From Ectocarpus siliculosus (lineage: Eukaryota > Sar > Phaeophyceae > Ectocarpales > Ectocarpaceae): a stretch of 32,642 nt of DNA. Positions 1 through 29,159 of the stretch are shown piece by piece (the first letter of the stretch is position 1; every line of letters begins with the position of its first letter). The stretch lies in contig FN649758.1 of assembly GCA_000310025.1 (NCBI GenBank), forward strand, positions 282,834-315,475, given 5' to 3'. The translations under genes were made by a program, and so were the position numbers. Under the pieces are notes generated by a model that saw only the letters and a program-made list of their open reading frames with translations, was not told the DNA's origin and made no database searches.

Positions 1-2
1 AG

Positions 3-176
3 CTCGTAACGAGAGAGATGAGCGGCAGAGAGCCGAGCGCGAGCAACGACAGCGATCCGGCGCAGGGGCGTTGCGTTGGTGGAGCTGACAAGATCTGCGC
101 CTCGGCCTCTTGCTGTGGCTCCCCGCGCCACTTCAATGTACGGGACTGCCATGCCAGTCGGGCTGCTCGGCGGAAG
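3..176 (+). CDS. Possible exon, cysteine-rich; degenerate EsV-1-7-like motif
   Basis: The third forward frame is open from the window edge and runs into a good splice donor (CGGAAG|GTGAGC) near 177, so this may be the 3' part of an exon whose start lies outside the window. The peptide has closely spaced cysteines followed by a P-R-H-F-N-V stretch and a basic end. This resembles the first half of the EsV-1-7 repeat that is abundant in brown-algal proteins (Cys, four residues, Cys, then P-x-F-N). The closing Cys-x2-His of that repeat is missing, so the match is partial and could be chance. No partner exon was found downstream. Confidence 0.2.
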
Positions 177-629
177 GTGAGCTCGTGTACATGAACATGT
201 TTACCAGGAGGGACGCCCTCCTTGGGCTGTTACTATAATATGACAAATTTGAATATCACCACTCACTAACCACAGACCACAAGGACTACGCGCTTGGATG
301 TGGCTTCCAGTTTGAACTGCTTGTGTTTGTAGTGTCTCCACGGCAGGCTTGCTTCAGCTGGTTACACAGAACAGCGTAAGACCGTCCCCATGCAAACTCC
401 TCGTGCGCGATTCTCCTCCGTCGCGCTGCGATGAAACGAACCCCCTTCTTTCCCCTGCCTTTTTGCTCGTTTTTTGCCTTTTGCTGTTTTTCGGGACAGC
501 CGGCGGAGAGGACGACGTCACCGACCTCACTTCTGTACAAGGAAACGGGGACGAGGAGGAGGAGGAGGAGGAGGAGGAGTAGGAGTAGGAGTAGGAGGAC
601 GGCCAGAATGCTGAGACACAGGAAGGTGA
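177..629. other. Stretch without a supported gene; GAG trinucleotide tract
   Basis: This stretch holds a pyrimidine-rich tract ending in a good acceptor (about 452-499, GGGACAG|CC) and then an interrupted GAG/GAGTAG repeat at about 549-597. Long Leu, Ser, Glu or Arg frames over the repeat are by-products of it. An exon starting near 500 is possible, but its frame cannot be chosen because all three frames look equally low in complexity. Confidence 0.4.
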
Positions 630-2458
630 CCACAAGGCCTCCGCGTGATTGACAGATGTCTTTGCCAGCAGACGGTGTTCCTCAACTTGACGAGCAAGTA
701 CCATGACTTTTCAAAGTGGAAAGCTACCGCTGCTGTACATTACCCCCGGGCCCCGGGCACTGATGCGCTGCAATTGTTCTTGACCACGCGTTGCGGTTAA
801 CCGAACATCCAGATGATTCCGGGAACAGCGGTGTCGCCGCGAGGCGGCCTGCCACGGGAGCGGCCGGTTCGGCAACCGGACAGGGCGCAGGAAATACACC
901 GGTGTCGAAGGCCTCGTGGTGAGCGGAACCTTCGCATGCCACGAGGCCCAATGTCTGTCCGCATATCTGCGTCATGTCGGTCGTGCGTCCTATGCAGTTC
1001 TAAGTTAGAAGTTGCGTGGTGGAGGTCCGGCACTCATCGATGCGGAACGGATATGCAGAAATCTGATGATGAAGAATCGGAGGGCACCCCCCCCCCGTCG
1101 CTTGAATCACGAAACAATGTCGGGGGTAGGCTAGCTCTCTTTTTATATATTTATATCGTAGTTGTGCGAACACGTCTGCTGGCGAGGCTTAGTAAAACAC
1201 GGTTTGAAAAACGTCATGCACATCGGCACGGGCTTGTTTCCAATTTACACCCACACACTTCGCCACATCACGGGTGTTGGCTGTATTATCCATGTTTAAC
1301 CCGTCGAGGAGAGGGCGGCATTGAGGGTTACCTCTGCTTGTTGCAGTACGATGTACTGTTCGGACCACAGCTTGGATTACCACCACCGAGTTGGCCTGAG
1401 AGAGGGATGCACCCCCCCCCCCCCCCCTCCTCCGCGTCCTTGAGTTGAGCGGATAAGGCGAGGCGTGGCGCATACCGTCACTGATGCATGCAGTACATAA
1501 GGGCTGTGATAGTGTTTTGCACAGGGATACATTATGGGAAGATATTTAGTTGTCCTTGGGTAAAATTTGCGTTTTCTCGCGTACGTAAGGATATTACGGA
1601 CACCACCGTATGTGCGTAGGCGTTTGCCAAAATCCATCGGTTAGGGTTAAACCAAGATATAACGAGTTCTTCAGTATGCCTAAATATCGTGGGTCAGCAG
1701 GCCCGACAAATACATGAGTTCAACAATGGGTAGGGGTGGTGTGTACGACATACACGCAACGCGTGTCAAAGTCAATAACATACGCCCAAAATTACAAACA
1801 CCACGCATGCGCCTCTTGTACGGCTGACCCCATACTGCTGCACCATTGCAGCCAAGGGACGTCCCGCAGCAGCAGCAGGAACGACGCGGACGTGCGAGGA
1901 GCTTCGTCGGGTGATGATGCGTCTGGCGGCCGGTCGACGCCCATAGGAAACAGGGGGAAGCGTACAACCGCTAACAAGACCCCGGCGTCATCGAATACCC
2001 GCAAGACAAGGCTAGCGAAGGAGGCCGAGGAGCAGGAGAAGATGAAGGCGTACGTCCGTCAGGCAGTTCAAGGCGGTGAAGCAGAGAGTTTCGGACTGCT
2101 TCACTGCAGCGACAACCAAGAAACATCGGGGTCGCGGGCAGGATTGACATCCCGCGACAATGATATCATGCAGGTTGCGGTGGCTGCAGCCGTCGCCCAA
2201 TCCCGCATGTCGCAGGGCCAGGCTCCCGGTGCCCAACAGACCCCGAACAGTAACCCCTTTGCCAATGGCATTGCTGGAGCTGCCGGGTTCATGCCCGCTA
2301 ACGGCATGAACCCGAGCGGGGTTGGCGGCCGCGCGAACTACGTGGCTTCCCAGGGCATGGGTGGATCCGTCGGAGTCTTTCCACAGGGCTTCGCGTGGCC
2401 TAGCAGCAACAACCCGTTCAATGGTAACATGTTCGGTAGAGGTCCCTATGGTAATTGA
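630..2458 (+). CDS. Hypothetical two-exon gene, Gly/Asn/Ser-rich C-terminus (5' part frame-broken)
   Basis: I do not recognise this gene. The last exon (1852-2458, TGA stop) encodes a Ser/Asp-rich segment, a charged helix (K-E-A-E-E-Q-E-K-M-K), then an Ala-rich and a Gly/Asn/Met/Pro-rich tail. The upstream exon ends at 918 on a GT donor (GTG|GTGAGC). It joins in phase 2 to the acceptor at 1851 (CATTGCAG|C), and both sides are Ser/Gly/Thr-rich of similar style, which supports the splice. Further upstream, 630-797 reads in another frame as a protein-like stretch (FLNLTSKYHDFSKWK, then DALQLFLTTRC) that ends in TAA at 798. Either there is a one-base frame break near 795-812, or two separate exons meet here. 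No start codon can be assigned. An 8-bp hairpin lies 25 nt after the stop. Confidence 0.4.
919..1851 (+). other. Intron of the hypothetical gene; contains poly-C runs
   Basis: This is a predicted 933-nt GT-AG intron between phase-2 exon ends. It contains two poly-C runs (about 1088-1096 and 1411-1426) and no convincing coding sequence. Confidence 0.4.
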
Positions 2459-3326: not shown

Positions 3327-5031
3327 ATGGGCATCTTGTCGCTGTCAATATATGCGAAGAGTGTGGGGTCACTGAGCGTAAACCTGCAGCACGCCGAACA
3401 CGATGACCGTATCGTAGTGGACGGCGGCTTTCTCCTTCACCGCTGCTGTACAAGGAGGACAGCGGCACGCGATTTTTTGCTGCACGACGACGTCGCCCCG
3501 CTTGTCAAAGAGTGTGCTGCCGAGGTCTCGCGGTTCGAGTCGCGTGGTTTCAGGTCACCGTAGTCCTCGATGGAAGCACTCCGCCGGCGAAGAAGAGCAC
3601 TTCCGAAGCTCGCAGAACCAAGCCGGAGGCTGCAGCCAGTGAGGCCCGCGAGCTCCAAAGAACTGGGGGCCGACTTACGGAGATCAACAAGAAGGCCAGC
3701 AGTGCGTGCGTGTTCGACTCCCGCGTTGTCGCAAGGGTTGCGACGCTCTTGCGACCCCAGATAGCAGGAGAGGTTTACAGCGCTCCAAGGGAGGCCGACC
3801 CACAGATCGTGATTTTCCAGGACATCTACCTAGAGACGGGGTGTCCTGTGTATGTATTCGCGAACGATTCGGACTTGATCGTCCTCGGTGTTCGATCGTT
3901 GCTGTGGGACGTAAGAGGGACTGATGCGGGAAATCTCACGGAGGTGTGCATCACGTCGAGGTTGATATTCCAACCACCGGAGTGGGCTTTCGCGATGGAC
4001 GCCGAAGGCTACGCTTTTCTCCGGCAACTGCATGGGCTTCCCCGCGGGCACACGTCTAACTTACGCGCTTCTCCTCTTACCGAAGCCGCCGCCCGCCGTA
4101 GGCTGAGTTTGTTCGCCACTCTCGCCGGAAACGACTTCGCCGATTTCAAGAACATCGGCCCTGTCAAGGCGGCCAACGTGGCCTTCGAATTGATCGAACC
4201 AGATCCTCGGGGAACAGCCGCCGTTGTGCCTTTTGAGGCGCTTGTGGGCAACTTGGCAAGGATCGTCGAGCAGGACTCCAAGGAGGAGGAAACACCAGCG
4301 GCCCTAGAGGAGGAGGAGGAAAAGCTCAGGAGGTCTCATAAACATGTTCCACAATGCGGTGGTGTGGGACCCGTTGAAGAACACCCTCCGACATTTCTCC
4401 GGTGCTGCGTCTTCGCTGGCCATCACCAATGACACAGGTCAGAGTCGTGGGGATCGTGTATGTGTTACCTGCTCCTGTCACGCCAAATATCCCCCACCTA
4501 CGTGTAGTATCTCGGGGGTAACATGAATTCCTAGGAGTGGTATGTTGTTCGGTGTCTGTGCCTTCTCGTTCCGCGGTAATGCGTGTCGTCGACGTCGTGT
4601 CTATGTGCGTGCATGTGTAGTCTGCAGACAGAGTATTTAGGTCTTTCGTGCACATGCTGTGCAGCTTCTCCGTAAGATTATTGTTCGAAGCTGGACTTTG
4701 CCCATGTCGTGGCACCGGAACGAACGCAATATTTTTTCGCCGACTCTCTAGCGCGCCCGGAATTGCCGTGGGGCACTCTAGGCAATATACAACATACATA
4801 GTATTGTAGACGAGCTAGCTTCCGTTGTCTGTGTGTCGAACATGAAACAATACTGCTGTACCACGGTTGCTCCTGGTGTATTACCACAGGTACCCTGGAG
4901 TTTTCCTCTGTCGCCTCTGGCATAGCATCGGGGGAAGTTTCTCCTACCACGGGCCAGGTGTGGGCCCCGCCATTACTGGAGACCCGGATAGCACAAGAGT
5001 TTCGCCGTGCTACACGACGGCCGGGGAGCCA

Positions 5032-5066
<35 letters not shown>

Positions 5067-7031
5067 GACCGACGCCGAGGCCGGACCAGAGTACGAGCCG
5101 GAACAAGCGCTCTCGCAAGGCGGTGACTCACGACACCAACAACTACCATAAACACGGGTTTAGTCGTCTCCCCGGTGCCGAAGAAGACTTCAACAAGTGG
5201 ACAGTCGCACAGCTACGCGAATTCCTCAGCGTGAGTCCAGAAGTTGCTTTCATGGTTACGTTTGGCATGCATACGGGATATTTATTTCAAGGGTTGAACA
5301 ATGGCGTCGCAAACTGCCGCGCGGGAATTTTAAAGTAGTTTATCGCTTGGATTATGCTTAAATATGTTGGGCTTTCGAAGGACACGCATTAATCACAGGA
5401 ACGAGTGTACGAGGGCCCGTTTGTGTCGCGGCACCCCCACTGTTAACCGTTTGTCACGCGTACACGCACAGCGTGATGCGAAGAAAAAATCCCCCCACGT
5501 GGCCCCTGTCCTATACGTTGTACTCGTGGCAGGTTTTTAGGTGCCTCGACCACGCCGGCCACAGCGCGTACCTCAAGGGCCCCCTCGTCGAGCTGGCGGG
5601 GCAGATAGTGGCGATGATCAAGAAGTGCGGGTTGCTCAACAGCAACCAAGCGTTCCGCCATCCTGTCCCGGATCTCAGCTCTTTCCAAGACAAGGAGCGC
5701 ATGGCCATGCCCGAACTACCCGGCCCCCGCTCGCGGATCAGCGGCTTTGAACATCTACAGCAGCACCTCCCCGAAATGTCCAAGTCGGTGATTCTGCAGT
5801 TCCTCCGACAAGTCAACCCAATCTCTGGCGAGGGTTCGCGGGTTTGGTACAGGGGGATGCAGAAGGTTACGGATATGGGGAACCTGAACAGGTTGTGGGG
5901 CGTCCCGGCCAAGAACGGGTTGATGTATCTGGGGATGAGGTAAGTAGCCACTGGATAGTGCGACCGGAAGTTACCACGCGAGAGGACTTACTAATGTTGT
6001 ATCCTTTCGGCAGGCCTGTAAGCGCTTCTCCCACACCGAACGCAGTCTTACCACTACCAACTACATTCGACACGCATTTCGCACCATAGTTTTCAAGATC
6101 ACACCCACAACCGCCCCCCCCCCACCCCCTCCTGCATCCCTCATGCACTGGTAACTTCGTGGGTGCTCTTTTGGCGCAACCCACTAGTTCGCTTCTACGG
6201 TAAGAAGCCCACATTGTTATGCCATGCTCCTGACAAATGTATACCCACCAGCCCACTTAAACGGTAAGAAACCCACTTTTTTTTTTTCATGCTTCTGACG
6301 TAAATACGATCTTGCCTCGTCGATTGTACCTCACGCCATCTTCCCTCCGTCCACGCTCGCTTCTGGTCAGCGCCGGTGCCTCCTTCTCGGATACGAAAAC
6401 GTACGAGGTCCGCATACAATTGCGGGTGGAGGCGTTGGACGAGAACGCTCATCCCTCAGCAGCGGAGGAGGAGGGGCACGGGGTAGAATCTGGGCAATGG
6501 CCGAGACCGCCCCTCGTCGCCCTTGGTGTGGTCGCCGCTTTGTGCGAGTGTCCTGCCGGCATAAGCGGGGGATGCTCCCACACTGCAATGGTCCTCTTCT
6601 TGACTCGTCTGCTGCAGATGACCGAGGACGAACTAGCCACGTTCAACCCATCTACATGTACCGGTCGAGCTTGCAGTTGGATCATGCAGAACTGTAAGGG
6701 GGGCAGGTCGGGAGAGCAGTGTTCGTTGTATGGAGAACCTCTATCGCACGGCACGAATGTGGTCAGGCGGGATCCTCGGCGAGGCTTTGACGACGACGTT
6801 CCGGCGAAAGTACAGGGAGTAACCGCGATCGATCGAATGCAAGACTTCAACCCGCACCCCTCTGGAGGAAAGTGGGATGAACTGAAGCTCCACTTCGATG
6901 CTGGCAAGGATTTCAGTAGGTTCAAAATGGACAAGCTGCTGGCGTTCGTGGATTGTGCCAGGGGCGCGGATAACAGAGCAGTCGCCATGGATTACCTTCC
7001 GCCGCTCGTGCGTGAAGATTGCGACCTGTAG
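3327..7031 (+). CDS. XPG/FEN1-type flap nuclease fused to SAP and SWIM domains (frame-broken in exon 1)
   Basis: Predicted exons are 3327-4437, 4890-5230, 5533-5939 and 6371-7031. All three junctions are GT-AG and in phase, giving about 839 residues. The start was chosen because FEN1-family proteins begin Met-Gly-Ile. Exon 1 shows the XPG N-domain (V-V-D-G-G near residue 32; V-V-L-D-G-S-T-P-P-A-K near 82), the XPG-I acidic cluster (A-P-R-E-A-D, then N-D-S-D-L), and the helix-hairpin-helix (A-G-N-D-F...N-I-G-P-V-K-A). All expected metal-binding acidic residues are visible. Exon 2 has a polyproline linker and the start of a SAP motif (K-W-T-V-A-Q-L-R-E-F-L-S), which exon 3 completes (L-K-G-P-L-V-E-L). 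Exon 4 has a SWIM finger (C-E-C-P-A-G...G-C-S-H) followed by a C-T-G-R-A-C-S-W segment typical of SWIM proteins linked to YqaJ nucleases. Two one-base frame breaks (about 3551 and 4340) cancel each other. It probably acts on DNA in the nucleus as a transposon accessory protein (inference). Confidence 0.72.
5035..5064 (+). repeat. (CCG)n tract encoding polyproline
   Basis: An uninterrupted CCG repeat lies in exon 2 of the nuclease-SAP-SWIM gene. It encodes about eleven prolines between the XPG part and the SAP motif and acts as a flexible linker. Its length is likely to vary between copies. Confidence 0.85.
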
Positions 7032-8131
7032 CTTTGTGGTTCCTTTTCCGTTCAGAGTGTTTTGCTAGCGGCACTCTAATGTGGCCTCTCTTTGGTGACT
7101 TCTACGTAAACCTGTCTATAGGCTCGACCCTCAGAGGTTAGTGCAACAATATTTTGTGGTAGGTTCGTTTTATTGGGTGTCATGGGGGGGGGGGGGGGGT
7201 CTACGCACGGGTGCCACGTGGGACGTCTACGCACGGTAGGGTTGAAAGTACCTTTTCGCTTTGGGCGCGGCGTCATCCGTCCGTCGCGACCATGCACCCC
7301 ATTAATTTGTTGCAAGATGAAGCGGGGGACAAGAGCTACCAGCTCTCGCTAAATGCATGGGTTTCTTTGGCGAGTGCATGCTTTGCCTGCCGCCTTCGCT
7401 ACAATAGACTCTTTTTTTAGCTCGCTGCACGAGCTGCGTGTATTCGCCCCCTGAACACGGCCCTCGTGCCCATTTTACCGTTCATCATGTGTCGGCAGAA
7501 GAATCGTGCGATATGACGGAGGGTTACTAGTGATATTTTCCTGTTTTTCCCTGACACGCTTGCCTTCCGTCGACGGAATCCCAACTAAAAACAGAGAAAT
7601 AGAAAGAGCTAGAGTTACCGATCGGGGGTTGGTAGGTACCATGCGAAACCCGAAGCAGTCACTGCTGCCGACCTGCCCTGAACTCAAATCTGGTAGGATG
7701 GGATTTATGGTCATTGTTCCAGAACGTGATTACACAGCGAGGTTGTTGCACTGGTTCCATCAGCTCGGATGCTCTCTTACAAAATATTCACCATTTAGGA
7801 GGTGCTCCCCGCAAGCGAACACTGACAACCCCGCACTAAGCCTGGGGTACCCCTATATCTAGCAAGTACATCACCGTGTATGCTCACTCGCCCAGCACAT
7901 CCACCCGCCGAATATCTCCGGGTACTCTTGGACGTCTTCTACTATACGTACTACATAGAATTTTCCTCAAACCGCAAATGGCACAACACCAACAGAACAC
8001 CACACAACATGCGCTTCAACAGGAACTCTACCATAACACCACACAACAAGGATGGGAGAGCCAACGCCACGGGGCAGCACATCCGCGCGCATACAACGAC
8101 ACACGCACACACACCGTACACCCCGGTATCC
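7032..8131. other. Region between two convergent genes
   Basis: About 1.1 kb lies between the stop of the nuclease-SAP-SWIM gene and the stop of the THAP transposase. It contains a poly-G run (about 7184-7199) with a short direct repeat after it (CTACGCACGG at about 7201 and 7227). Open frames here have no protein-like pattern that I recognise. No YqaJ nuclease exon was seen. Confidence 0.5.
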
Positions 8132-10542
8132 CTAGCTCCGAAACGGCTGTTGCATCAAGTTTACCAAAGCAGCCACTACATGAAAGCACATCTCCAGGTG
8201 ATCGAGTTGCTTGTGATGGAACTTGGAGTCAACGATACTCCACTTCTTCATTGCTCCGATTGCGCGTTCTACGTGAATGCGCAAGTTGGCTACCTCCCAA
8301 TTTTGCTGCATGTCGGCTTTGGTGAACTGAATCTCGCCGTTAAACTTGAAGGGTGGCGCGCAATAGTGAATACCTTCCCTTATCAGCAAAGGCGAGATGA
8401 AGTTGAAACCCTTGTCGGCCATCACTTTGAAACCCATGTTAGATATACCGTTTTCCCTCATAGCGTCGACGAGACCAGACTTGCGAACAACCTCAACGTC
8501 ACTCATCCTCCCTGGGTACGCGGGTCCGATATAGCAAATGGCACCCCCGGGGGTTATCGCTACAAGAACTTTAGCCGTGTGCCTGCCCTTGTACGTGGAA
8601 GAAGACACAAAATTCATGTTTGTTTGCCACGACTTGGGGATCTCTATCTCCGTGGCATCCAACACCAACGCGCAATTCTCATAACCTAAGTCGTCGAAGT
8701 TCTTGGGGAGAAGGTCGACGACCTCTTTTGCCGAAGGCAACCGTATGACAGGACGGAGGCTGCGATAGAGGAAATTCAGCCACGTCGTGAAAGCCCTCCC
8801 CCCGGTACTCTCGTGCACACCGAATAGAGTCGACGCCACAACCAGCGGCACCGCCGTGCGCAACACCATCAACGTAAAAAATAGTCCGTTGACACCACGA
8901 AAAGTCTTGACTCGCTGGCTGTTTCCACCCGCTGAAACGCCTGCCCGTTCTCGCTGATCGAAAAACACCATGTTCTCCGCAGCGCCGTCGGCGTTCGCGA
9001 ACTCGTACAGCTTCTGCAGGGTAGGGGCGGGGAGATGGGAGAATAGCCACGGGTTATGCCGGTGAAGATTTTGTGGGCGGCTACGCGGTCAAAGCGGCGG
9101 AGCAATGCCGCTATTCGGCCGAAAGCGAAATGTTTGAGCAGAGGCGTCCACGGCTTGAGCGGAGGCGATAAAACTAAAAGCAATGACCGGCGGGAATGCA
9201 ATCATACGTTGGTCATAATTTAGCGGTAGCCGGTCCTATTTTTCTTTATGCGCTAACACGACTTTTCGCGGCAAAAACAAAAACGGCGGTACACCCGGTG
9301 TTGCCCGGTGTTTGTGTAGGAAAATTGGCGCCAGGTTAATTACCGACACCACTTGAAAAACTGAACAAAACAATGCTTCGATTCGATCTGATAATCACCA
9401 CTTGCCCTAGCCAGAAAACACACGAGGTTAACCGAAAATGCATGCAATTCTCGTTGGCGACAACCATCAACTTGGACTCGTTGAATTTCTTACTACTGCT
9501 GTAGTAGCCGATAGACGGGATGATGACAAACACCCTCACACCAGCCTATTGCTGTAGACCTGGACAGCTGTAAAACCAGGACATCACTCCTCTTGCCGTG
9601 GGCAAAACATTACACAACCACCGGCGCCCACCACTACCGTAGGACGCGCAGCAGGTAATCCATTCCCGATCATACTGGTAGCCTACTGGGGTTGTCTGCT
9701 GTAATATGTACAACATAGACTACATGCCAGCTGTGTACTACTGTAGTTTCGAGCGACATATCTTGAACGCACGAGCTCAGCTGCCACAACAGCAGTTAGT
9801 TGTAGACAACGTACGAACTAAATGCCAGTTTTTAGACTATGCAATGACGTGAAAAATGGGGCATGCGTTGTATCGGGGCTGCAGGTGAGGCGGGTGTGTC
9901 AATAAGAAATACAGACAATTTCCCGCAGTACAGAGCTAGCGTACAGCAGTCCTTACTTACCAGGAGAGCCTCGTGGGTGGGCACCCCCGCCAGGCAACGA
10001 ACTTCTGTCGGCGTCTTTCCACGGAGGATGTTGTGGTCGATCCCAACGTCCGCCGGCTGTGATGACCTGCCGTGTGCTTTCTGTTTATCCACCGCCTCCT
10101 TTAGCTCCGACTCTAGCAGGGAGATCCTTAGCCCCAAATCTCTACTTTTATCCTTGAGTCGTGCTTCCTCCTGAGCCCCACCTAGCAGCGCTCTCCGATG
10201 TCGGTCGTTCAAAGCTTCGAGCTTGAGACTCCTTGCCAGGGCACCACGAGAAGCTTTGAGCATCTCCTCGCTCGTTTGGCTTGGCAGTGCTCCCTCCTTC
10301 ACGTTAACCCCTACCGCTTCGCCGGTAAGGGATTTGCTCTTCACATCGGCTGCTAGGCTACCAGGAGGGAAGTGAGCGGTCGAAATCCTAGGGTCGCTCT
10401 TGGGGACTGGAAAGTCGTCTCGACCAAAAAGCGCGTTGCACCAGCTCTTGAACTTGCCAGCGTCTTTGGGCATCCGTATCGTCGCGTCTCCACCATCCTC
10501 CTCACAAAATTTTGTTTGGCAGATGCATCTATGTTTCCCCAT
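8132..10542 (-). CDS. THAP-HTH-DDE_Tnp_4 transposase (PIF-Harbinger/ISL2EU type), two exons
   Basis: Exon 1 runs 10542-9961 and exon 2 runs 9013-8132. The intron has a strong donor (CTCCTG|GTAAGT) and a pyrimidine-rich acceptor (CCCTGCAG), joined in phase 0, for about 487 residues. The N-terminus is a THAP-like DNA-binding domain (C-I-C-Q-T-K-F-C, conserved W in K-S-W-C, A-H-F-P), though the third zinc-ligand cysteine appears replaced by serine. A coiled coil follows (L-L-E-S-E-L-K-E-A-V-D). A helix-turn-helix then spans the splice junction (T-E-V-R-C-L-A-G-V-P-T-H-E). Exon 2 is the catalytic DDE_Tnp_4 domain: first Asp in L-V-L-D-A-T-E-I, then Y-K-G-R-H-T-A-K, second Asp in M-A-D-K-G-F, and the Glu in R-I-H-V-E-R-A-I-G. 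The gene looks intact and could be active. It cuts and rejoins transposon ends in the nucleus and is convergent with the XPG-SAP-SWIM gene. Confidence 0.92.
9014..9960 (-). other. Intron of the THAP transposase gene
   Basis: This is a predicted 947-nt phase-0 intron. It contains three of the recurrent CTGCTGTA/TACAGCAG octamers and no supported nested gene. Confidence 0.75.
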
Positions 10543-11034
10543 TGTAAGCGCTGAGGATCCCTACGGCTGCTGGGCGGAGTGTGTGTTGTGTGCTCACGTG
10601 TCACCAGGCGACAACCGACAAGAGAGAGCGGGCCTGCAGGTTGCTGGTACACCGCTTGTATCGCTCTGAAAATTATGCGCGGAGTCCCGAAATCTCGCCG
10701 CAAAAGGAGCTGACTAAAACGAAGCAGTACGCCGAGCTCTCCTTCGTGATGGGAATCTCTAGAGCATGCCAAGGGGCGTAGGAGTGTTCTGCTGTCCTAT
10801 CCTGGCGTTATCGTTGTTCGGTAAGTGGTGTCACGGCCTCCGCAGCTGCCAAGCCAGCGGCTTCAAGTTTTGAAAAGCCCTCCCCAATTCGTCTTGGTTT
10901 TAGAGTGCCCAAAACAGCGTATGCCCCCCCCCCCCACAGGCGATTTGACGAAAATGCGCGGCTATTGCAAGAAGCCTATGCACCCATAGCTGCATATGCA
11001 AGCCAGCTACAGCTTACAGCAACACTAAACTCAC
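10543..11034. other. Between transposase start and TRAPPC2 exon 1; transposon end and intron 1 of TRAPPC2
   Basis: This stretch is in intron 1 of TRAPPC2, immediately downstream of its exon 1 donor, and is also the 5' flank of the THAP transposase. It has a poly-C run (10923-10935). All minus frames were read for the next TRAPPC2 exon (expected Y-L-K-x-V-D-x-F-N) and it is absent. The right end of the putative transposon should lie here. Confidence 0.5.
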
Positions 11035-27562: not shown

Positions 27563-28498
27563 GAGGTTATTGTAGTCGGCAAGAAAACACAAAAAACAAA
27601 ATTCATGGATTGGTTGGGTGAGTGGGGGGACCCCAAAACAATGAAACAGTCGCGGTTCGCGTTGTTCTGTAGCCCTACCGGCGAAAAACACCGTCGCCGC
27701 GCTGAACCGCTGGAAGCTGTCACACAGCACTGCATGTGCGGCGAACCGTAGGGGCAATGCGCATTGCTTGACGGAAAGAGGCGGCGCCCATCGCCTCACA
27801 TGCAGCAACCGGCTACACGGGTAGCCTCCTACTCAGCAAGATGCAAAACGATTGCCGTTGACGTTCGATGTTATTGGGACCCTAACGGCGAAAATGCAAC
27901 AGTGAGAGAGAGGTAGACTAAAGGAAGGGAGACTCGAGAAGACAAGGCATGAACTCTCGAGAAGACACCCACTCTCATCCCTCTGGCCCACTGCAGGCTT
28001 GAACACGTGTAACGAACGGCAACATCCGATGTGCGCTCAGCAACAACAAACACGACAAAATAAAAGTAGTCGTCGTTCCCGAAGTGCTGTGGAGATAGTG
28101 TAAGTTGGTGGAGACTTTCTTTCTTTTCTGGTATGAAGTGGCAACAAAGAAGAACACGACTATCTGTGTAGACTAGAAGCACGACGGACGAAGTATTTTC
28201 TCAATGCGCTTGCCGTCGCGATAGATGCGCACCGCTACCGCCATACGGACGAGCAGACTGTTGTCAAACCTGACTACGATAACGGCACGACCATTGCAGC
28301 ACATTCCGAGCATAACCGCAGCAACCGCAGCAGCAGCCGCATGTGTACAATCGTCGCTCAACAACAAACGCAAAAAATAAATAAAAAAAAGATGTGGCAC
28401 GCAGCGCGCAGGACCCTTTTTCGCTGTTCAACCGGCCGTTTCCAGTCGTTGATTCCTATTGACTTGCGGACCCCTCGGGGCCAGTTTGTTTGAGCGTA

Positions 28499-28590
28499 CA
28501 TTTTTAGGGTAAATTAGCCTGTGACCACGGGAATCGACCGCGTCAAGTGTTGGATCAGTACGGACATATGAAGGTACTGGGTAGAGAGAG
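28499..28590 (-). repeat. Dispersed repeat with B-box-like core, copy 2
   Basis: This is the inverted partner of 26129-26250. It lacks roughly 25 bp in the middle relative to copy 1. Confidence 0.7.
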
Positions 28591-28670
28591 ATCGGACCGG
28601 TTTTTAATGTGAAGACAACAACAACAACAACAACATCAATGGCGAAACAGGCAAGGAGCAGTCAAGGTCG

Positions 28671-28781
28671 ACTCTTGCCGGCCACAGGAGGCGGAAGCTG
28701 CTCAAACTCGGGGACGGCTCATGATTTGCGATTCCACACCGAACCATACTCGAGGCGCCACGAGATTTTCACTGTAGCTCG
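28671..28781 (-). pseudogene. Coding-like segment, paralogous to 27451-27562
   Basis: It has about two-thirds nucleotide identity by eye to 27451-27562 in the same orientation. The frame that matches is interrupted by a stop, so this copy looks decayed. Confidence 0.4.
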
Positions 28782-29159
28782 AGATGAGCATTTTAGACCG
28801 GGCCGGGCAAGGGGTGGGGCATGCGCATGAAACTTCCACGGATATTGAACGATGAGACTGAAGCTAAAGCTTCAGAACTCACGATTCCAGATGGCAAGCA
28901 AGAGTCAGAAACACTGAGCGGAAAAGGCAGAGGGGATTCCGAACAGAACCGGATTTGTTCCCCAACCCCTTCTTGTGTATTTTTTTTATTTTCTTAGTTT
29001 GACCCAACGAATCCATCTCTATCTAAGAAAAGCGTCAAAGACAGATTGGCAATGGATCTATAGCGTCAGCGAAAGCTACCTGTCTTTCCACGATTTCCCG
29101 AGCAGCACACAGCGATATCTCCCCTATATGGGTAACAGGCTCTCAACAAGACTGTACTT

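Follow-up and report, generated by a model that had tools for sequence, protein, structure and literature searches.

Does a nuclease gene that lies beside a transposase gene in a brown-algal genome belong to the same mobile element, and if so, to an element of which kind? The question is raised by a stretch of 32,642 nucleotides from Ectocarpus siliculosus (assembly GCA_000310025.1, contig FN649758.1; C33:282834-315475 in our numbering), referred to as the window, in which an earlier note, made from the sequence alone, had seen a flap-nuclease/SAP/SWIM gene facing a THAP-type transposase gene and had proposed a single ISL2EU-like transposon with a swapped nuclease. Having searched 189 Mb of genome sequence on 492 contigs for copies, with repeat counts that are lower bounds, we conclude that the window probably contains most of a single, damaged copy of an ISL2EU-like DNA transposon of the PHIS superfamily, which measures 12-15 kb and carries an EXO1-type accessory nuclease instead of a YqaJ exonuclease. 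About the anatomy of this element, as described below, we have little doubt.

The evidence for a single unit comes from the ends of the element. In five elements, three of them from family 1 (C13, C53 and C390), one from family 2 (C15) and one from family 3 (C261), one set of inverted repeats encloses both the nuclease (XPG) gene and the transposase gene. The earlier note had named copies in which the two genes never share a set of terminal repeats as evidence against its proposal, and its idea of one unit has held up, with an XPG-SWIM gene, a THAP-HTH-DDE_Tnp_4 gene, a 2-bp duplication and no YqaJ. A 21-base end pattern, which matched the genome at 16 places (12 of them read; 4 matches for the backward pattern used as a control), stands at either end, in inverted orientation, of three elements: C13 (14.3 kb), C390 (12.2 kb) and C53, which measures 15.2 kb and includes 1.9 kb of N. 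The right repeat of the window copy is 95% identical over 312 bp to the left end of C13, in inverted orientation. The repeat of C15 measures ~380 bp, with outer bases that are nearly those of family 1, and that of C261 ~207 bp; for C187 (family 4), no terminal repeat was found within the stretches fetched. On the right, the window copy ends at 10977; on the left, its end falls inside the N run just before window base 1. The left part (1 to ~2107) matches C13, minus about 2.4 kb there. At window ~2105-2107, the two sides of the junction share TGC alone, which resembles an internal deletion mediated by short homology.

The target site can be read from the C53 element, which is inserted in a repeat of which locus L011 has two paralogous empty copies (CCATGGCG, compared with CCAT[A...T]ATGGCG around the element). 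Because the empty site reads CCATGG and the filled one CCAT[element]ATGG, this insertion was accompanied by a 2-bp AT duplication; a TA duplication with element ends in GG was considered as well and is excluded for C53 by the L011 empty site. An AT lies outside the outermost A at all of the 12 family-1 ends read. In families 1 and 2, the element ends read AGG and the duplication is AT; in family 3, they read (G/A)GACC. The common ends and the 2-bp duplication predicted for this transposon were thus recovered, the former as inverted repeats in three families and the latter at the empty site of C53. The repeat common to L011 (on C122) and the flanks of the C53 element, whose L011 copies gave the empty site, is also present in the window (28113-28744, 28838-28877 and 28994-29155). 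The flanks of the C15 element (L025 2040-2190 and L009 9700-9840) resemble, by eye, leucine-rich repeats; they lie in opposite orientation and are 73% alike over 108 bp.

Across the genome, 17 loci proved to contain the XPG exon, and at 13 of them (C33, C71, C390, C53, C407, C13, C178, C131, C15, C122, C94, C261 and C187) a convergent DDE_Tnp_4 transposase lies within about 11 kb; on C122 the partner is locus L038, and other sequence intervenes between it and the XPG exon. Of the four unpaired loci, C376 breaks off where its contig ends, C372 enters a gap and C4 is truncated. C239 is broken: its homology stops beyond the SWIM exon, and a DDE_Tnp_4 match in convergent orientation lies at a distance of 15 kb. 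Elsewhere, C223 and C454 stop where their contigs end or no more than 0.3 kb before, and on C114 the transposase side alone is retained. With DDE_Tnp_4 at 75 places genome-wide, the chance fraction for such pairing is 0.009; because the copies are related, however, the fair statement is that the pair occurs in four of four families. These families are divergent, with XPG sequences that are 34-51% identical between them, and the three conserved parts appear, by sequence, to diverge in step: families 1 and 2 share 51% identity in XPG, 62% in SWIM and about 74% in DDE, and more distant pairs 34-39%, 35-38% (window versus family 3) and 40-52%, respectively, the DDE values excluding a short C12 row and coming from a matrix without three family-1 copies (L003, L005 and L006). 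Between families 1 and 2, the ratio of nonsynonymous to synonymous substitution rates (dN/dS), estimated from two to five sequences per exon, is 0.24-0.25 for the XPG exon, 0.29 for exon 3 and 0.09-0.10 for the DDE exon; in the SWIM exon 4, the proportions of nonsynonymous and synonymous differences are 0.24 and 0.79, the latter near saturation. Over 8.3 kb, C390 and C53 are 99.2% identical to each other, and they sit at different sites with different flanks, so that movement is recent.

That the transposase is merely an unrelated chance neighbour of a host XPG gene, or that the nuclease is passenger cargo, is hardly credible in the light of these copies. Host-type XPG-family matches do exist, to Pfam XPG_I over cut-off at five other genome places, but all of these places lie on contigs outside the 17 element loci. 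The pairing at 13 of 17 loci in four families, the one pair of terminal repeats around both genes and the purifying selection between families all speak against mere adjacency, and chance proximity to a host XPG gene is ruled out by the element copies. When viral contigs were scanned twice with the XPG and SWIM exons of family 2, the patterns matched 8 and 7 times, and neither scan revealed a relative. On C4, a 773-residue frame (L016 3455-5773) that looks, by eye, like a copia-like reverse transcriptase follows ~1.4 kb past the point at which the family-3 nuclease is truncated.

The two genes converge, the accessory gene on the plus and the transposase gene on the minus strand, with 1.1 kb between their ends (Table 1). 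In the window, the transposase is intact, as the earlier note had described it: its two exons join in phase to 487 codons with zero internal stops, and DDE_Tnp_4 (E 3.8e-31) and HTH_Tnp_4 (E 3e-10) are both matched over their Pfam cut-offs. For the nuclease, the window copy's own XPG pieces match their Pfam families under the cut-offs. Sibling copies, by contrast, match XPG_N above cut-off in two families (L002 and L007) and XPG_I in a third (L012), and a profile built from nine XPG pieces of four families has human Exonuclease 1 as its top match (E 1.7e-17), followed by XPG and FEN1 structures (PDB 3qea and others); low-scoring HIV Rev rows in the same search align to a short basic stretch. 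The acidic motifs VDG, FDG/LDG, EAD, DSD and GND, which we take to be metal ligands as in FEN1, are visible in copies of families 1-4 (in separate frames in families 3 and 4). Judged by its sequence, the nuclease is therefore of the EXO1/XPG/FEN1 class, in agreement with what had been claimed for it. It shares N-terminal and I-region homology and acidic motifs with Exonuclease 1, FEN1 and XPG, whereas these are immobile host repair enzymes, in none of which we know of a SWIM finger. Structure prediction without an alignment gave mean predicted local distance difference test (pLDDT) scores of 37.2 and 35.0 for two window exons and was left unused.

The accessory gene comprises four exons with GT-AG borders that sum to exactly 840 codons. 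In families 1 and 2, despite their divergence in XPG, the exon 1 donor, both borders of exon 2 as well as of exon 3, and the exon 4 acceptor fall at the same codons, with phases in agreement, and the order of XPG, exon 3 and SWIM is kept in families 1-4. Because of these matching borders and the purifying selection between families, the XPG nuclease and the SWIM finger very probably form a single fused protein. In exon 4, the CxCx7CxH motif is invariant and the following CxW is kept in 7/7 aligned rows from three families, and CxCx7CxH recurs in family 4.

Several observations weigh against this picture of an element with a fused and functional nuclease. The first group concerns the gene model. 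In the window copy, the frame of exon 1 is broken: the 840-codon splice contains 10 premature stops, every one of them in exon 1, which stem from two length differences relative to the sibling copies, near 3551 and near 4343 (placed by eye), that offset each other. The in-phase 839-residue gene that had been described is thus borne out in its exons, borders and codon sum, but in this copy exon 1 cannot be read through in one open frame. It is open in C390 (371 residues) and C131 (370 residues). The C390 copy, however, has no consensus acceptor upstream of exon 2, and the linkage of the exons is read from their conserved borders alone. Both defects would suit a transposon in which two separate, adjoining genes encode the nuclease and the SWIM protein. 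We consider such an arrangement unlikely, since donor and acceptor positions and their phases coincide between families 1 and 2, the four exons add up to 840 codons and the order of the parts stays constant in four families.

A second group concerns the domain assignments. Pfam SWIM found no match in the accessory exons scanned, so that the finger claimed by the earlier note stands on the conserved motif and not on the family profile. The SAP domain claimed in the same gene could not be upheld: only positions 1-15 of the 37-position profile are matched, at E 0.014-0.081 and under cut-off, and joining exons 2 and 3, tried as a route to a full domain, did not extend the match. For the transposase, THAP matches likewise stay under cut-off (E 0.016 in the window and 0.025 in a second scan), and the family-3 exon gave none.

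Further points concern activity and coherence. The catalytic Glu is gone from the family-2 copy C239 (GKAD), and dN/dS within families is 0.39-1.03, which indicates that many copies drift. The weak Pfam scores and the damage to the window and C239 copies could suggest a catalytically dead XPG domain that serves purely to bind DNA structures. This possibility appears decidedly unlikely, given that the better copies of families 1-4 retain the acidic motifs and that exon 1 has a dN/dS of about 0.2 between families 1 and 2; compared with the ratios within families, the values between families point to genes that were under selection while the families diverged and to single copies that decay. Two loci, C12 and C200, hold a transposase and SWIM without an XPG match. 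At the level of the target, the empty site is known for one insertion only, C53, and the base beyond the AT at the 12 family-1 ends is A in 3, C in 7 and T in 2.

The left part of the element possibly contains a third gene. Its frames are Cys/His-rich or of low complexity; none of the four scanned, three of family 1 and one of family 2, matches a Pfam family over cut-off, and those of C13 with at least 50 residues have no match in the fetched left parts of families 2-4. One Cys/His-rich family-1 frame without a Pfam match (HCRACGHLVHNLC..FCGGLAC; L018 895-1659, window 1-300) perhaps encodes a third zinc-binding protein.

Table 1. Features of the element copy in the window, in window coordinates.
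Feature	Position	Strand	Remarks
Left part of element, possible third gene	1..2458	+	No Pfam family; ~2.4 kb of C13 missing at ~2107
Accessory gene, exon 1	3327..4437	+	XPG/EXO1-type nuclease domain, starts MGILSL; frame breaks near 3551 and 4343 in the window copy
Accessory gene, exon 2	4890..5230	+	Low-complexity linker, then TNNY..SRLP..TVxxLREFL, half a SAP-like motif; borders common to family 2
Accessory gene, exon 3	5533..5939	+	Conserved, fold unknown (VFRCLDHAG...); dN/dS 0.29, families 1 vs 2
Accessory gene, exon 4	6371..7031	+	SWIM-type CxCx7CxH finger, CxW motif, C-terminus; no YqaJ match after
Transposase, exon 2	8132..9013	-	HTH_Tnp_4 and DDE_Tnp_4 catalytic domain; dN/dS 0.09-0.10 vs family 2
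Transposase, exon 1	9961..10542	-	THAP-like domain, E 0.016; donor GTAAGT, in phase with exon 2
Right terminal inverted repeat	10669..10977		~310 bp; outer end AGGCTTCTTGCAATAGCC on minus strand
Putative right-hand copy (AT) of the 2-bp target-site duplication	10978..10979		Parsed from the empty site of another copy

The second proteins of ISL2EU elements also bear a SWIM finger, and their customary nuclease, YqaJ, was searched for in Ectocarpus. It has no match in the accessory exons scanned, in the window and in sibling copies, and the sole match found in the genome is a 214-residue frame on C16 that is unrelated to the elements; no DDE_Tnp_4 place is listed on that contig. There (C16:4382500-4392000, L027 4908-7029), the YqaJ frame is directly followed by an intronless frame of 510 residues that appears, by eye, helicase-like, and the stretch is perhaps inserted large-DNA-virus DNA rather than a transposon.

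According to a survey of 836 genomes (PMC4482050), ISL2EU comprises 25 families, all from animal hosts, which have a THAP-HTH-DDE transposase and duplicate AT within a conserved A|AT|T. Most autonomous elements have a second open reading frame with YqaJ; the repeats measure 6-259 bp and usually begin with GG, and the elements average about 4.8 kb. The Ectocarpus element has in common with them the plan of the transposase, a nuclease-bearing second open reading frame, the 2-bp AT duplication and the inverted repeats. The differences add to the points raised above against the assignment: the second protein carries an N-terminal XPG/EXO1 nuclease and no YqaJ, the outermost base is an A preceding the GG, and the element measures 12-15 kb and its repeats ~310 bp, both beyond the figures of the survey. 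The ISL2EU target is not followed either, since the next base out is A in 3/12 ends. As the transposase plan and the duplication are shared, whereas there are differences in YqaJ, in the A|AT|T target and in the ranges of size, we call the element ISL2EU-like rather than a member of ISL2EU.

How the element came by its nuclease can be read in two ways. Exonucleases of the YqaJ/lambda type have 5'-3' polarity, and EXO1/FEN1 enzymes likewise act in the 5'-3' direction and on 5' flaps; because of this common polarity, an EXO1-type enzyme could fill the post of YqaJ. It is therefore conceivable, if rather doubtful, that a PHIS clade replaced YqaJ with an EXO1-type nuclease of the same polarity on the same SWIM carrier. 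The nuclease that the earlier note described as swapped could equally be an independent fusion, and it is quite possible that a separate PHIS branch, compatible with the same anatomy, joined XPG to SWIM on its own without YqaJ ever having been present. An independent branch would be in line with the lack of YqaJ in the copies examined and the location of the genome's sole match elsewhere, with the unmet A|AT|T, the larger size and the longer repeats, and with the relationships of the transposases: in a comparison that covered the element loci and 20 further DDE_Tnp_4 places, 3 of the 20 fell inside this transposase clade and 17 outside it (E 0.009 or worse, or no match). The presence of a SWIM finger in the second protein, as in ISL2EU, argues against it. 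So does the combination of THAP with an AT duplication, which is that of ISL2EU in the survey, whereas the exclusively animal hosts of the families recorded there favour a separate origin (PMC4482050). A 908-bp stretch of Phytophthora parasitica is listed with an ISL2EU annotation in another report (PMC8204020).

Nucleases that vary within a transposase superfamily have a precedent. In Kolobok, which belongs to another superfamily, different lineages carry PD-(D/E)xK, DEDDh or His-Me nucleases or a RecQ helicase, with no XPG/EXO1-type enzyme among the nucleases listed (PMC9587614). The AcademX lineage of DNA transposons also encodes a nuclease (PMC10045372). Its transposase, by contrast, belongs to an unrelated superfamily, and its duplications measure 3-4 bp. 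Academ nucleases are of XPG type, so that the element-borne nuclease of AcademX is possibly of the same class as that of Ectocarpus; a paper pairing Academ with XPG was not found. Nor did the literature matches listed, as judged by term counts and in a search with Repbase and most subscription journals outside its range, include one that joins ISL2EU or YqaJ with an XPG/flap endonuclease in a eukaryotic transposon.

It is tempting to speculate how the two proteins might act together. The transposase would excise the element at its ends and join it to AT sites, with the THAP-like and SWIM fingers keeping both proteins bound to DNA of the element or of chromatin. Acting on 5' ends, the nuclease would remove short 5' flaps where the element has newly been joined; alternatively, it could resect the donor break, such that repair from the sister copy restores the element. 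On the simplest account, the element would supply an enzyme of its own to process 5' ends, and the fold of this enzyme would be free to differ, provided that its polarity stays the same. A role in 5'-end processing, proposed by analogy, is a tentative assignment.

As far as we know, the reason why ISL2EU elements carry an exonuclease is unsettled. An unrelated nuclease on a SWIM finger offers a natural comparison in this respect: if polarity is all that the two enzymes share, polarity would be what the element needs. Should replacement of YqaJ be the true history, 5'-end resection or flap trimming would be a required step of transposition that is supplied by the element itself. Our findings suggest that such elements need an end-trimmer but that the identity of this enzyme can differ, and a well-defined, recently mobile element such as the one described here would allow nuclease-dead and nuclease-exchanged versions to be compared.

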